Assembly (NCBI GenBank): GCA_025057645.1
Contig: JANXBJ010000013.1
Span: 1 to 64,000, forward strand
Length of the DNA: 64,000 nt
DNA from: Anaerolineales bacterium
Lineage (GTDB): Bacteria > Chloroflexota > Anaerolineae > Anaerolineales > UBA4823
Direction of reading: 5' to 3'
Every line of letters starts with the position of its first letter. The first letter of the stretch is position 1. Made by a program: the position numbers and the translations under genes. The notes under the pieces were generated by a model that was not told the origin of the DNA, did not search any database, and saw only the letters and a program-made list of their open reading frames with translations. Below are positions 56,308 to 63,666 of this stretch, one piece after another.

Positions 56308-58704
56308 TTACTCCGAGCCCGTGCCCTCTGCCCTTACCTCTTGCTGGATTAGCTCTAGGAATTTTTCGGTGAGGTAGGGGTCAAACTGCAATCCGGCGAG
56401 GGAGCGGATAATAGCAATTGCCTCTTCTAGCGAATAGGCCGGGCGGTAGGGACGATCGGAAGTGAGAGCATCGAAAACATCGACCAGGGCAAACATGCGC
56501 GCCGCTAAAGGGATGTTCTCACCGCTGATCCCTAACGGATAGCCCGATCCATCCCACCATTCGTGGTGAAGGTAAGGGATGTCCAAAGCCCCCTTAAGAT
56601 AGTCAATGTCCTTGAGTAGCTCATAGGCAATCAGGGGGTGGCGACGCATGATCGTCCACTCTTGCTCGTCCAACGGACCGGGCTTGTTGATAACCGAGCT
56701 GGGGATCACCATTTTGCCGATATCGTGCAGCAATGCCCCGTAGCGCAGGGGCTGGAGTTCTTCTTCCTTAAAGCCCAGATGACGGGCAAAGCGAAGCATC
56801 AGCTCCACTACTCGGTAGCTGTGTCCTGCGGTTTCTTGCTCGTGAAATTCTAATGCCCGTGCCCAGCCTTGGATAGTGGCTTCATAGGCCATAACGAGGT
56901 TGAGGTTGGCCTGGGCAAGCTCCGCTTCAGTTTGGCGTTGACGTTCTCGTTGGCGCAAGGTAAAAATGCCGTAGGAGAGATCATCGGCTAGTTCACGCAG
57001 CAGTTCAATCTCTTCGGGTTGGAAGGATTCGCCTTCTCTGCCATACACAAACAGGGAGCCGAAGATTTCGCTTTCACTCATAAGGGGAAAGACCAGATAG
57101 GTGCGCTCGCTCCCTGGCGATTTCCCGGAAGCTTTGGCATTCTCCTCAACCCCTTCTCTCGCGCTAGGGAGGGAATGAGGCTCGAGGCCGGCCGGTTGTG
57201 TTCGTGGATCTTTGAAGTATGCTGGGCGCATTGAACCCGGAAGTAGGTCTTTATGCTCGCCCTCAACCGCCAGCGGCTTTAGCCCTGCGGATGAGGCATC
57301 CACAGCCCCGATCCAGACCAGAGGATAGCCACCAACGGAGGCGAGGATTTCGCAGGTTTCTTTCAGAAGTTGACTCTCGTCTCTCGCCCGGACCAATGCT
57401 TGGTTGCACAGGGTCAGGATGCGCAGCAAACGATTGGCCTGGCGCAGTTCGGCCTCGCTTTCTTGCAAGGCTTTTTCTTTTTCCTTATATCCACTTAGGT
57501 CGCGCGCAACCAGCATCACCCGGTGTTGGTCCAGAGGGGATAGGGCCGCAGAGAACCACTTTTTACCTTCCGGAAGCAGAAGCTCGTATTCGATCCACTG
57601 AGTCTTTTGTTCTTTCAGCGCCCGTTGGATCGCTTGATAGTGCAACGCAGCCGTCTCCGGCTTGAGGAAGTCTTCCAGCTTTTTGCCGACTAGCCGCTGA
57701 GGTTCGGCGACCAATAAGTTTGGACGCGCCGAAGGGACTTCGAGGTAGCGCCCTTGGCGATCGAAGACGATCACGGCGTCGGGCATGGCGGCAAAAAGGG
57801 CTTGCAATTCGGCGGTGCGACGTAGCACCTGGCGACGCAAGGTTGCATTCCATAGTCCCAACATCAAGAGCAGCGCAATCAGCGAGGCGCTTCCGATGAT
57901 CAGGGATCGTTGCAGGTCGGGATGCAGGGGCAGTTGCCCATACCAACGGGTTCTGATCCGGCGGTATTCTGCTGCCGTGATCAGGCTGAATCCCTCCTCA
58001 ATTGTGGCCAGCAGGGCAGTGTTTCCCTTTTTCACGGCGCGGTGAAATTGGCCGACATACATCGGTGGCGAGGAGCGAAAGTTGTTGTAGAGGCCATATT
58101 TGGCGAGGAAATATTCTGCCGGGGGTTGATCCATTACGAAAACTACTACTTCGTGCCGCTGTGCAGCTTGAATAATGGCTTCGTAGCTGGGGTATTCGAC
58201 CAGTTGATAGATGCCTTCCCCTTGGAGATAACGGATGGCGTTATCTCCGGCTTTCACGGCCACGGTGAACCCCTTCAGGTCTGCAGCGGTGCGAATCCCG
58301 CTGATGTTGCTGCGGAAGTAAATTGGCACTTCGATGTCCGCATAGGGTGCGGAAAAATCGAGGAACTGCGCCCGCTCCGGATTGTAGAAGATAGTGTCGA
58401 TGACATCATATTCTCCGGCGGCCATGCGTTCTAGCGCTTTGCCCCAGTCCAGCCCCTCGATCTGCACGGCGATGCCGGTTTTTTGCTCCCAAAGTCGCCA
58501 TTCATCGATCAGAATCCCTTGTAGCTGGCCTTCTGCATTCTCGAAGACAAAAGGGGGATAGTTATTGTCGAGGACGACCCGGATAGAGTTAAAGCTGCCT
58601 CGCTCGAAAGGGCGTTGGGGGATGCAAGAAGCGGCGAACAGAAAGAGCGAGAAGAATAAGCCTTGCAGAACTTGCCGGGGGGAAAAGACTTGCCGATACC
58701 GCAT
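56308..58704 (-). CDS. Solute-binding/PAS/GAF/HD-GYP receptor (c-di-GMP phosphodiesterase type)
   Basis: 798 residues. An N-terminal signal sequence has a possible lipidated Cys27 (FAASC). An external SBP_bac_3 amino-acid-binding-like domain (about 40-265) is followed by one membrane helix (about 270-290), a PAS domain (about 300-420), a coiled linker, a GAF domain (about 435-595) and an HD-GYP domain. The HD-GYP core has HDIGK at 660-664 and HHEWWDGSGYP at 713-723, the key residues for c-di-GMP hydrolysis; the usual HHE-x-x-DG-x-GYP is intact. It should link an external small molecule to c-di-GMP breakdown. A TATAAT (58762-58757, minus strand) precedes it. Confidence 0.9.
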   Translation of the reverse strand: MRYRQVFSPRQVLQGLFFSLFLFAASCIPQRPFERGSFNSIRVVLDNNYPPFVFENAEGQLQGILIDEWRLWEQKTGIAVQIEGLDWGKALERMAAGEYDVIDTIFYNPERAQFLDFSAPYADIEVPIYFRSNISGIRTAADLKGFTVAVKAGDNAIRYLQGEGIYQLVEYPSYEAIIQAAQRHEVVVFVMDQPPAEYFLAKYGLYNNFRSSPPMYVGQFHRAVKKGNTALLATIEEGFSLITAAEYRRIRTRWYGQLPLHPDLQRSLIIGSASLIALLLMLGLWNATLRRQVLRRTAELQALFAAMPDAVIVFDRQGRYLEVPSARPNLLVAEPQRLVGKKLEDFLKPETAALHYQAIQRALKEQKTQWIEYELLLPEGKKWFSAALSPLDQHRVMLVARDLSGYKEKEKALQESEAELRQANRLLRILTLCNQALVRARDESQLLKETCEILASVGGYPLVWIGAVDASSAGLKPLAVEGEHKDLLPGSMRPAYFKDPRTQPAGLEPHSLPSAREGVEENAKASGKSPGSERTYLVFPLMSESEIFGSLFVYGREGESFQPEEIELLRELADDLSYGIFTLRQRERQRQTEAELAQANLNLVMAYEATIQGWARALEFHEQETAGHSYRVVELMLRFARHLGFKEEELQPLRYGALLHDIGKMVIPSSVINKPGPLDEQEWTIMRRHPLIAYELLKDIDYLKGALDIPYLHHEWWDGSGYPLGISGENIPLAARMFALVDVFDALTSDRPYRPAYSLEEAIAIIRSLAGLQFDPYLTEKFLELIQQEVRAEGTGSE

Positions 58705-59903: not shown

Positions 59904-60050
59904 CTCTGCGAGTTCGCCGCAGACTTCTCAGGCCAAGCGCACGGTCAACGGCGTAGATAGCGTCACTAGCCCCCGCTGTTGTGTGCTCAAGAAGCGGACG
60001 TCCTCGCATGCGCCGGGCGCGCAGCCTGCTCTCCTGCGAGGGGGGCGGCC

Positions 60051-60118
60051 CTCACCCCCGGCCCCCCTCCCTGTGGGAGAGGGGAGCAGCTCTCACCCCC
60101 GGCCCCCCTCCCTGTGGG
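60051..60118. repeat. Direct 27-nt repeat pair in GC-rich spacer
   Basis: 60051-60077 and 60092-60118 are identical 27-mers, beginning CTCACCCCCGGCCCCCCTCC, 41 nt apart start to start. The type resembles dispersed intergenic repeats of other high-GC genomes, and a looser relative is at about 8404-8441. The wider 59904-60364 spacer has no gene. Confidence 0.75.
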
Positions 60119-60364
60119 GGAGGTGAGAATAGAACGGGTTGCGGGCCGGGAGAAGAAAGCCTGCGACTCTTGATACAGGCCGACGCCCCGACCAGCCTGT
60201 TGCAGGCCGGTGAGTCGGAGAGGGAGCACAGTAAGCGGACCAACACCTGGGGTCGAGCCTGTTGAAACCGCTACGGCCTTATTGAAACCCACACGGGCTT
60301 CTTTCCCAAACAATTTTGCAAACCTCTTCTGCTTGCTTCCTAACAGTTTTGCGAGGCAGCATCG

Positions 60365-60393
60365 TTGACAGCTCCTCGCCGATCTGCTAAGAT
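60365..60393 (+). promoter_or_regulatory. Promoter of the riboswitch-controlled gene
   Basis: TTGACA (60365-60370, perfect), a 17-nt spacer and TAAGAT (60388-60393). Transcription would start near 60400, right at the 5' edge of the first riboswitch. Confidence 0.8.
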
Positions 60394-60400
60394 GCGTGCC

Positions 60401-60497
60401 GGCACGAAAAGGCAAAGTCGGTGAAAACCGACGACGCAAAGCCATGGGTCTAAGGTCATCTCAGGATGACGATGACTGCCAGGTTGCCGAATGTCAA
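60401..60497 (+). promoter_or_regulatory. c-di-GMP-I (GEMM-I) riboswitch, first of two
   Basis: The class hallmarks are in order. GGCAAA (60411) is followed by a GAAA-tetraloop hairpin GTCGGT-GAAA-ACCGAC (60417-60432). GACGCAAAGCCATGGGTCTAA holds the tetraloop receptor side. A second hairpin is GTCATC-TCAG-GATGAC (60455-60470). The closing GCCAGGTTGCCG pairs with the opening GGCAA. It binds cyclic di-GMP. Confidence 0.92.
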
Positions 60498-60571
60498 GAG
60501 AATTGAGTGTCTCCTTCATTCGATAAGCCTGGCGTCCCCAGGCTCGATTGCTTAAGTGCACCTTACTAAAG

Positions 60572-60672
60572 CGACCCAGACCGACCAAGGCAAACCCGGC
60601 GAAAGCCGGGGACGCAAAGCCATGGATCTACAAACCGGCGCAGCCGGTCAGGATAGCCAGGTTGCCGAAGTA
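60572..60672 (+). promoter_or_regulatory. c-di-GMP-I (GEMM-I) riboswitch, second of two
   Basis: A second full aptamer: GGCAAA (60589), hairpin CCCGGC-GAAA-GCCGGG (60595-60610), GACGCAAAGCCATGGATCTA, hairpin ACCGGC-N3-GCCGGT (60634-60648) and closing GCCAGGTTGCCG (60656-60667). The two copies differ in stem sequence but keep pairing and the conserved core. The spacer between them carries its own hairpin AGCCTGG/CCAGGCT (60526-60544). Confidence 0.92.
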
Positions 60673-60693
60673 GTGGGTTGTGCTTGTCCCCTT

Positions 60694-60721
60694 AACGGGC
60701 TTGGTTATCCAAGCCCGTTTT
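60694..60721 (+). terminator. Terminator-like expression platform after the riboswitches
   Basis: An 11-bp stem (AACGGGCTTGG / CCAAGCCCGTT) with a TTAT loop is followed by T residues and ends 18 nt before the start codon of the propeller gene. It is the likely switch element: ligand state of the upstream aptamers decides whether it forms. Confidence 0.85.
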
Positions 60722-60739
60722 GTTCGGAGCAGGGATCGG

Positions 60740-62395
60740 ATGAAGGCCGAGAAACCCTTCGATCTGACAGCCGCACCCCGCCTCAGCAGAGCGTTGCGCA
60801 AAATGCTCAGCGGGTCTGCTGTTTTCGGCGGGCTGATCGTGATCCTCTCCGTCTTTCCCTTGCTCTCTGCGCAAGCGGCAAATCCTTCCTCGAGTCTACC
60901 TGCTTGCCAGCCGTTTGTTCAGGTCAATGAGAATGCCTTTGGCCTTGGCGGCGGTGCGGATGGCACATTTCGTTCAGAAGAGGGTTTTGAAGTCCTGGTT
61001 TTCAACGGACAGCTCTACCTTGGGATGGAAGCGGACAACACCATGGGCGCGCGCATCTGGCGTACTAAGGCTGGAGTGACCCTCCCCACGTCTCAGGCAG
61101 ATTGGGAAGAAGTCGCCGCCGACCCGCAAGGCTATCCCTTTGGCGTAACCAACGTCGCTCAAAACGATCACATCGATAGCTTAGCCGAGTTCAATGGGTA
61201 TCTTTATGCCAGCACCGCCAATGGTGGCAGCAGCACATACGGAACGCGCGTTTTTCGCAGCTCGACTGGCAATCCGCATAGCTGGGAAGATGCCTTAGTC
61301 AACATTGGCGCCGGCTTTGGCAGCGTGCAGAATACGAATTTCAAAGATATGCAAGTCTTCAATGGCTGGTTGTGCGGCGGCACTCAGAATTGGCTCTTCG
61401 GCGCTCAGGTTTGGTGCACCCAAGACGGTCTGAATTGGGTGCAGAAGAACCTCAGCGGCTTTGGCGTTGCGCAGCACGACAACAGGACTGTCGCAGTTTG
61501 GTCGGGTTTTGTCTACCGAGATGCGCTGTATTTTGGTGTGCAAAACCTCGGTGCCACTCGCTCCAGCAGCTACGACGACCTTGGCAAACTTTACCGCACG
61601 CGCAACCTGAACGGCACCCCGCAATGGGAGGAGGTGTTCGTCAGTTTGCCCGGCTATTTGAATCGGGTGGACATTCTCGGCGAACTCGATGGCTCTCTTT
61701 ATATCGCGAGCCGCGGGTCAAGCGGCGGGATTATCGTCTATCGCAGCCCGAGTGGCGACCGGGGCACTTGGCAGCAAGTCAGCCTCGAGGGGATGAACGG
61801 CACATTGGCAAACCACGCTGTAGTTGTAGATGGAGCGGTCGCCTACGAAGGGGGTCTGTATGTTGCTGTGAGCAACAATAGCGGGTTTCAACTGTGGCGG
61901 ACATCAGGCACACTCCAAGGAAACGGGATGGTTGATTGGGAGCAGGTGGGTGGCAGTGGTTTGACCGAGGTGCAAAATGTGCACTCAGAGCTAGTCGTCT
62001 TCAACGGTCATCTCTTTGCCTGGACTTCGAATTACGTCCATGGTCAGCAAGTGCTGCGCTCCAACTGCGCTGCGGGGGCAGGATTGCCTTCGCCCACTCC
62101 GACCAACACAGCCCAATCCAGTGCAACGCCCACCCTTCTGCCGACTGCCACTGCGACCGCTCAATCCAGCCCGACTACTCAACCCTCGCCGACACCCACT
62201 TTGCGTTCTACTGAGACCCCGACCGTCCAACCGACAGCCACTCCTACGGCACAACCCAGTCCAACCTTGGCCCCCAGTCAGACACCAAGCGATACACCAG
62301 CGCCCTCCTGCCCGCAAGGCGATCAAAGCTGTCTGAACCCTAGCCCCAATAGCAAGACCTATAGTGTGTTTCTGCCGATCTTGGCCAAGCCATAA
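60740..62395 (+). CDS. Secreted beta-propeller-like surface protein with Thr/Pro linker and FLP tail
   Basis: 551 residues. A long N-terminal signal region (hydrophobic about 28-46, ending SAQA) is followed by about 370 residues of repeating units with a F-NG-LY-G-N and W-R-T/S pattern (for example VFNGQLYLGMEADNT and EFNGYLYASTANGGS), resembling Kelch/Sialidase-type propeller blades. A TPTxTA-rich linker (about 453-525) follows, and the protein ends YSVFLPILAKP. The tail is a motif I associate with Chloroflexota exported proteins. ATG 60740 has AGGG at 60731-60734. Tandem c-di-GMP riboswitches control it, so adhesion or biofilm is the natural guess. Confidence 0.85.
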   Translation: MKAEKPFDLTAAPRLSRALRKMLSGSAVFGGLIVILSVFPLLSAQAANPSSSLPACQPFVQVNENAFGLGGGADGTFRSEEGFEVLVFNGQLYLGMEADNTMGARIWRTKAGVTLPTSQADWEEVAADPQGYPFGVTNVAQNDHIDSLAEFNGYLYASTANGGSSTYGTRVFRSSTGNPHSWEDALVNIGAGFGSVQNTNFKDMQVFNGWLCGGTQNWLFGAQVWCTQDGLNWVQKNLSGFGVAQHDNRTVAVWSGFVYRDALYFGVQNLGATRSSSYDDLGKLYRTRNLNGTPQWEEVFVSLPGYLNRVDILGELDGSLYIASRGSSGGIIVYRSPSGDRGTWQQVSLEGMNGTLANHAVVVDGAVAYEGGLYVAVSNNSGFQLWRTSGTLQGNGMVDWEQVGGSGLTEVQNVHSELVVFNGHLFAWTSNYVHGQQVLRSNCAAGAGLPSPTPTNTAQSSATPTLLPTATATAQSSPTTQPSPTPTLRSTETPTVQPTATPTAQPSPTLAPSQTPSDTPAPSCPQGDQSCLNPSPNSKTYSVFLPILAKP

Positions 62396-62843
62396 CCTTG
62401 ACTACGGTTTCCTTCCCAAAGAAATCTATAGAACGCAGGTTCGGGATAAAGCGGGTTGAATAGTACAGTACATCAAATGCCCTCACCTGGTCAGGATTAG
62501 TCGAGGTGTCTTTGCCTGCGAAATAGCGTCAACGGATGGGAGCGTAAATGATCAGCGCACGGGATCGCAGGCGTCCCCGCCTGCGAACGGGACGGACGTC
62601 CCCATGCGCCCTGCGAGGGTCCGTTGTCTCTTGCCGAACGGACACACTTGCAATTTCACACCCAGCGGGAGACTTTGAGGATTTCTCACTCGCTGATATT
62701 CCTTCGGAATTCCTCGGAGGAAGCGCTGCATTGCTGGCGCACATAAAGTAGCCTCCTGCAAAAAACCATTTAGCAGGGGGGGCGTTGGGTAAACATTTTG
62801 GACGAGGAGAATTTTGTTCTCCCTGTAATCAACTTCTATCTGC
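62396..62843. other. Gene-free intergenic region with an inverted repeat
   Basis: No gene found. CGCAGGC-N6-GCCTGCG (62566-62585) is a perfect hairpin, and its right part (62570-62586) matches 30951-30967 exactly in inverse orientation over 17 nt. The region ends with the -10 box of the zinc-ribbon gene. Confidence 0.55.
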
Positions 62844-62849
62844 TATAAT
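62844..62849 (+). promoter_or_regulatory. -10 element placing a leaderless start for the zinc-ribbon gene
   Basis: Perfect TATAAT, then 7 nt, then ATG 62857. No -35 hexamer is found at the normal distance. Confidence 0.55.
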
Positions 62850-62856
62850 CCAACGC

Positions 62857-63666
62857 ATGGAGAGTCTCACACCGGCTACGATTGTTTCCTGTTCCCAGTG
62901 CGGGGGCGACCTTCACCCCGATGCTGGACAGATCTTTCTTACTTGCCCTTACTGCGGCTCAACGGTTTTTCTGGATAAAAGCCAGGTTGTCTTTCACTGG
63001 TATGTTGCCCCTACGCTGGATGAGACCAGGGCGCGTGGGGCTTTGGCGCGCTGGATGGCCGGCAACCAAACCGTCAAAGATCTAGACCGCAAAGCCCGCG
63101 TCACAGAGGTCACCTTTAGCTACTTTCCCATGTGGTTGTTCAAACGCCGCCTCCCCAGCGGAGAAGATCGCCTTTTGCTGATGCCGGCCGCAGCCACTTC
63201 AATCAGCGAGCTGAAGCGCATCCATCTGCCGCCCGGCGACTTGCGCAGATCCACCCCCGAGATCGACCGCACCGCACAACCGCCAACGGTGCCGCTCGAA
63301 GCTGCCCTAAATTGGCTGAGCCAAAGCAAGATCCCCCTTCAGGAGATTGTCGAAAAATCCCTTGTCCACATCCCGATCTACACCTGTAAATACTTCTTCA
63401 ATGACCGCACTTATACGGCAATCGTTGAGGGGGCAAGTGGCGAAGTGTTTGCCAACATCTACCCGGCCAAAGCCGAGGCGCCGTACTTGGCTATCGGTGG
63501 GATTACCGCCATCCTTTACCTCTGTCTGGCGACCTTCCCGGCAATGGGGGCCTTGCAGGGCGGTGCCGCAGGGCTAGGAATCGGTTTTTTGATTTGCGGC
63601 GCAGCCGGTTTGGTCATTGCTCCGATCCTTTTTGCCATTGCCGCTTGGATTGCTGCCAAAATATGA
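62857..63666 (+). CDS. Zinc-ribbon membrane protein, unknown function
   Basis: 269 residues. An N-terminal zinc ribbon has C12-x2-C15 (CSQCGG) and C30-x2-C33 (CPYCGS). A central soluble region of about 170 residues follows, with recurring aromatic segments (FSYFPMWLFKRR, HIPIYTCKYFFNDRTYTAIVEG). Two C-terminal membrane helices (about 211-234 and 240-267) end the protein. The layout recalls zinc-ribbon proteins that sit on the membrane as scaffolds, but no specific family is recognised. ATG 62857 lies 7 nt after TATAAT. It overlaps the next gene by ATGA. Confidence 0.7.
   Translation: MESLTPATIVSCSQCGGDLHPDAGQIFLTCPYCGSTVFLDKSQVVFHWYVAPTLDETRARGALARWMAGNQTVKDLDRKARVTEVTFSYFPMWLFKRRLPSGEDRLLLMPAAATSISELKRIHLPPGDLRRSTPEIDRTAQPPTVPLEAALNWLSQSKIPLQEIVEKSLVHIPIYTCKYFFNDRTYTAIVEGASGEVFANIYPAKAEAPYLAIGGITAILYLCLATFPAMGALQGGAAGLGIGFLICGAAGLVIAPILFAIAAWIAAKI

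Follow-up and report, generated by a model that had tools for sequence, protein, structure and literature searches.

Two c-di-GMP-I riboswitches in series are predicted to switch off an exported beta-propeller gene in Anaerolineales

Why would one gene carry two riboswitches for the same ligand in a single leader, and would the ligand turn that gene on or off? The question is raised by a leader within a 64,000-nucleotide stretch of DNA (hereafter the window) from an Anaerolineales bacterium, which places two c-di-GMP-I aptamers ahead of a gene for a predicted surface protein. In a published survey, c-di-GMP-I tandems outnumbered those of any other single class, with 347 doublets and 12 triplets (PMC9481103), and the c-di-GMP family is among three for which contiguous arrangement is enriched (PMC12452182). 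With 347 published doublets the tandem in the window is not unprecedented, while our literature search found no paper on c-di-GMP riboswitches for this bacterial group. Here, we read the leader as two c-di-GMP-I riboswitches in series that would act as an OFF switch by transcription termination, a reading to which we give a probability of roughly three in four, and we describe how the first of the two appears to have lost most of the T run of its terminator.

We scanned the leader (60365–60740) with all Rfam families and also searched the genome, using gathering cut-offs of 35 bits for RF01051 and 59 bits for RF03167. A preliminary description of this DNA had recognized two complete c-di-GMP-I aptamers on one leader and proposed a covariance-model search as a check; both copies match RF01051 far above its cut-off, aptamer 1 (60401–60491, plus strand) with 83.1 bits and aptamer 2 (60580–60670, plus strand) with 77.6 bits in the genome search. 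These scores, together with the recurrence of the entire leader in six further genomes, exclude chance. The GAAA loop and receptor attributed to each copy hold up in part: the tetraloop is present in both, and the receptor strands have the usual form in copy 1 (CUAAG/GAUGA) and a variant form in copy 2 (CUACA/AGGAUA). Both copies carry the canonical pocket, with G, A and C at the three ligand-contact positions, which we take to be 20, 47 and 92 of the Vc2 structure, and either aptamer would be expected to bind c-di-GMP. The genome (3.1 Mb in 63 contigs) contains six c-di-GMP-I aptamers and ten GGDEF domains. One of its other switches, on the minus strand at L077:3111-3194 (G000:C14:22110-22193), is a single OFF-type c-di-GMP-I switch with a large exported protein downstream.

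Transcription is predicted to start near 60400, about at aptamer 1, by which the earlier reading had placed a promoter. The promoter itself, TTGACA-17 nt-TAAGAT with a TG before the −10 element (60365–60393, plus strand), is the sole promoter-like site in 1.1 kb, where 0.1 would be expected. Beyond aptamer 2 stands an intrinsic terminator, T2 (60694–60724, plus strand), with the sequence AACGGGCTTGG-TTAT-CCAAGCCCGTT at 60694–60719; its 11-bp stem joins 60694–60704 to 60709–60719 across the loop TTAT, and its T run, TTTTGTT, begins at 60718. Taken as 60694–60721, the terminator is separated from the ATG at 60740 by 18 nt, exactly as first described, and it lies wholly outside aptamer 2, starting 24 nt past the aptamer end at 60670. 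A second hairpin, T1 (60526–60544, plus strand; AGCCTGG-CGTCC-CCAGGCT), absent from the preliminary description, lies between the aptamers; its stem is kept and its T run is largely lost, the stem being followed in the window by CGATTGCT, which is no proper T run, whereas copy 2 has both terminator and T run. Because copy 1 has a relic hairpin of its own, the ancestor of the leader would seem to have been a series of two complete riboswitches and not a pair of aptamers sharing one platform, and the comparison with tandem glycine riboswitches offered earlier is a loose one. Two further structural ideas were rejected: translational control, as no hairpin includes GGAG or the ATG, and a longer outer helix enclosing aptamer 2, present in one fold and on inspection not kept in relatives.

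Orthologues of the regulated gene with two aptamers upstream occur in six other Anaerolineales genomes at 61–94% identity, four of them from the genus of the window (G001, G002, G004 and G005) and two from another genus of the same family (G029 and G012). The two aptamers are about 170–181 nt apart in the orthologue leaders, and the seven aligned leaders, from two genera, share the promoter, both aptamers and both hairpins in the same order. More distant homologues and paralogues that we scanned had no aptamer directly upstream of the gene, so tandem control of the propeller gene appears to belong to this clade. Other elements lie farther upstream. Two copies of an AACARTTTTGC-like motif precede the promoter in the window (60304–60356), one near-palindromic copy (AACAATCTTGTT or AACAATCTTGTA) is found in G001 and G005, and a CTAACA..TCTGC form also occurs in G029 and G012; these are possible regulator-binding sites. 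The intergenic region at 60050–60130 holds a C-rich element, CTCACCCCCGGCCCCCCTCCCTGTGGG, twice, and a spurious ORF at L079:7498-8010 seems to be based on a similar element.

How might such a leader work? Without c-di-GMP, the emerging terminator arm would pair with the 3’ strand of aptamer P3, and this antiterminator would let polymerase continue through to the propeller gene. Once c-di-GMP is bound, P3 would be locked in the aptamer and the terminator arm left free, so that the terminator folds and the gene is off. Copy 2 with T2 would constitute a complete unit of this kind, and copy 1 with T1 would formerly have been a second. The direction of control had been left open; we infer OFF at high c-di-GMP from a terminator that stands apart from the aptamer and has an arm complementary to the aptamer’s own P3 strand. 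In copy 2, the 3’ side of P3 (60651–60663, plus strand, GGAUAGCCAGGUU) can form 13 contiguous base pairs with 60698–60710 (P = 0.0026 against shuffled aptamers), a pairing that takes in the T2 loop and the first two bases of the T2 3’ arm and is the same in G001 and G004. The equivalent strand of copy 1 (60477–60485, plus strand, UGCCAGGUU) can form 9 bp with the T1 arm at 60526–60534, a helix that alone gives P = 0.07 against shuffled aptamers.

The same relationship recurs in other units. Terminator stems there lie outside the aptamer, and their 5’ arms (GCCUGG, GGCCUGG, GGGCUUGG, GUCUGG) are complementary to the P3 3’ strand of the preceding aptamer, CCAGGYY, with 7–8 of 8 positions pairing in 19 units, while none of 11 terminators unlinked to aptamers reaches 7/8 (maximum 6/8). 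In a set of 26 units (12 distinct), for whose selection the arms were partly used, pairing holds in 81 of 84 cells and drops to 46 and 48 when the partner is slid by one base. Variation between P3 and arm also fits pairing (GC, GU and AU at pair 4; CG, UG and UA at pair 7). A partner permutation used as a covariation test was not significant (P = 0.29) because sequence diversity is low, and we regard the covariation as supportive, not as proof. In equilibrium folds by transcript length, with energies computed at 37°C, which may differ from the growth temperature, antiterminator 1 stands at 0.97 once its arm emerges and antiterminator 2 at 0.90–0.91 for transcripts ending at 60710–60712, and the latter is replaced by the terminator by 60716. 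In transcripts that stop short of 60708, the T2 arm is paired elsewhere. At full length and equilibrium T2 always wins (0.998–0.999), so regulation would have to be kinetic.

The state of T1 differs between the two genera. In the window the eight bases after the T1 stem are those given above; they read AATTGCTT in G001 and G005, ATTTGCTT in G004 and AATTTTTT in G002. In G029 and G012 they are TTTTTTAT and TTTTTTCT, and both genomes have a full terminator at the place of T1 (for example, CCAAGCCUG-UUUUUU). Most other spaced tandems that we found (G029:C47, G047, G060) likewise have a full terminator after the first aptamer, T run included, which makes loss of the T run in the genus of the window the simpler reading. 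T1 is an apparent relic of a terminator, and any termination that it still provides is probably weak. Since the T run is lost, copy 2 might work alone, with copy 1 a decaying leftover and the leader in effect a single OFF switch, and in favor of this the T run is eroded in four of the genus’s five species, to the greatest degree in the window. We nevertheless consider it unlikely, as aptamer 1 has high scores and retained pocket residues in all five species, the T1 stem is kept with 8/8 positions able to pair with P3, and G002 retains AATTTTTT after the stem. Conservation of the T1 stem and of its match to aptamer 1 suggests instead that copy 1 may keep weak termination or another role.

It is also conceivable that the switch is ON, with c-di-GMP blocking terminator formation and so allowing expression. 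c-di-GMP often raises surface proteins, and ON-type single switches exist in the clade. Moreover, the best studied c-di-GMP-I tandem, the triple-tandem Bc3-5 of Bacillus thuringiensis, was proposed and measured to be an ON switch, and its terminators use aptamer nucleotides (PMC4759541). Like the window, Bc3-5 repeats the same aptamer class in one leader and acts by transcription termination. However, ON designs make the terminator from the last bases of the aptamer (CUGCCG with CGGCAG; Bc4), as do the single c-di-GMP-I aptamers of ON design at L071:3278, L072:3371, L064:4238 and 6371, and L065:2981, in which CUGCCG at the aptamer end is the terminator 5’ arm. In the window the terminators are separate, no nucleotides of the aptamer 3’ strand lie inside T2, and the T2 arm matches P3, all of which makes control in the ON direction quite unlikely. 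The two designs can be distinguished by sequence, and that of the window is of the predicted OFF kind. Such a design is known from Cd1 of Clostridioides difficile, an experimentally demonstrated OFF switch upstream of flagellar genes, in which strands T and H form the terminator and T pairs with aptamer strand A in a transiently stable antiterminator (PMC9262584). The window shares with Cd1 the free-standing terminator stem outside the aptamer and an arm that can pair with an aptamer strand (13 bp for T2), and its OFF direction is predicted by this likeness. In contrast to Cd1, which has a single aptamer and another gene, it has two copies in series before a surface propeller gene. A lineage rule by which tandems are OFF and singles ON does not hold, as many single switches are OFF-type too.

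A more speculative form of the OFF reading, which we hold to be very unlikely, is that the tandem is now a two-aptamer, one-terminator device in which aptamer 1 acts at T2 by way of a non-terminating T1. The T1 3’ arm and T2 5’ arm could form 8–9 bp in each of the genus’s five species, a complementarity that partly follows from shared constraints, but a T1–T2 relay was set aside because it reaches at most 0.09 in equilibrium folds. If such a device did operate, the T1 stem would be kept because aptamer 1 still works through T1 on the T2 decision, and the T1 3’ arm, once freed, would by pairing with the 5’ arm of T2 turn “either bound stops” into “both must be bound”.

Highly improbable is a two-signal gate in which copy 2 is a c-di-GMP-I-GGC variant with another ligand: Rfam clan competition does award copy 2 to RF03167 (74.7 bits, above the gathering cut-off), but it has GCAAA where the consensus of that family has GCGAA, RF01051 fits it as well, and its pocket residues are those of copy 1. 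The family name apparently refers to the G that gives GCGAA, and with this pocket-position G missing we rejected the variant and regard copy 2 as a c-di-GMP-I aptamer of the ordinary type, though its P3 is in part unusual.

Aptamer arrays of other kinds are present in relatives. A spaced tandem on the minus strand at L069:2751-3021 (G012:C90) has A at position 20 in aptamer 1, as in c-AMP-GMP-binding variants, and G in aptamer 2; it precedes another exported protein and might respond to two signals. Triplets of c-di-GMP-I-like aptamers with a period of ~83 nt occur at L067:875-1230 (G029:C52:103174-103530) and L068:888-1439 (G012:C15), with no room for a terminator between them and with AAC, AAA and GAC at positions 20/47/92. 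These arrays end in terminator hairpins with a TPP riboswitch or a GatB/YqeY-like gene next, and no obvious regulated gene adjoins them; they are possibly free-standing RNAs or mixed-ligand devices. Further tight double or triple arrays, with a period of about 83–140 nt, lie at G047:C1:2991443-2991705, G008:C5:108624-108795, G056:C13:147-324 and G025:C583:483-656 and in G034:C355, G032:C189, G019:C50 and G033:C25; position 20 is A in the first aptamer of G008 and an unusual residue in G047.

The regulated gene (60740–62395, plus strand, stop codon included) encodes a 551-aa product with an N-terminal hydrophobic segment and a C-terminal Thr/Pro linker followed by VFLPILAKP. Searches of Pfam and NCBIfam gave nothing above cut-off, and no PDB entry matches it in sequence. 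An AlphaFold2 model built from a seven-sequence alignment is a beta-propeller in which seven blades can be counted (core pLDDT mostly 75–93, pTM 0.67), and in a Foldseek search Photorhabdus lectins and sialidases rank highest (E about 1e-9, about 12% identity). An exported, linker-bearing propeller protein, as first described, is supported by these features. The PLL/PHL lectins of Photorhabdus resemble the product in fold, a comparison that concerns the protein only; identity is ~12%, and sugar binding by the product is unsupported. We rejected the proposed biofilm or adhesion role: no family match lies above cut-off, the structural matches show only a general propeller fold, and a gene under OFF control would not be expected to be induced when c-di-GMP is high. 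In the window (62100–62395) and the orthologues, the Thr/Pro-rich linker leads to a conserved C-terminal YSVFLPIL(A/V/I)KP, and other exported proteins of relatives have similar ends (IFLPIIQH, IYLPMINH); this end may serve the group as a signal for sorting or anchoring.

In G004, G005, G029 and G012 the propeller gene adjoins a SpaA-like surface-protein gene (Pfam SpaA_4 and SdrD_B in G005) that has an ON-type single aptamer, and the ON-design singles listed above mostly precede such SpaA/SdrD-like neighbors. The window is without a SpaA-like neighbor, zinc-ribbon genes directly follow the propeller gene, and we found no remnant of an ON-type aptamer at 62380–62860. On the other side, a gene on the minus strand (56308–58704) encodes a solute-binding/PAS/GAF/HD protein of HD-GYP type, resembling c-di-GMP phosphodiesterases; it is read in the opposite direction about 1.7 kb before the leader, and we rejected a link to it because it is not adjacent and the upstream genes differ in G005.

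Among known c-di-GMP-I tandems, the unusual feature of the window is the decayed first terminator. Like the surveyed doublets, it has two complete same-class aptamers in one leader, for which a sharper response is expected; the survey classes c-di-GMP-I tandems as having multiple expression platforms (PMC9481103), whereas in the window most of the T run of the first platform is gone. The c-di-GMP-I riboswitch Bc1 also places two terminators before its gene, but both follow one aptamer (PMC11218506), whereas in the window one hairpin follows each aptamer. What emerges is a conserved tandem, predicted to be OFF in response to c-di-GMP, with a logic that can be read from its sequence. In relatives, the adjacency of a propeller gene predicted to be OFF and a SpaA-like gene predicted to be ON would suggest a simple hypothesis of a surface swap. 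Loss of the T run from one of two serial terminators between sister genera would, in turn, offer a way to ask why tandems for the same ligand persist, whether for steepness, for redundancy or by drift.
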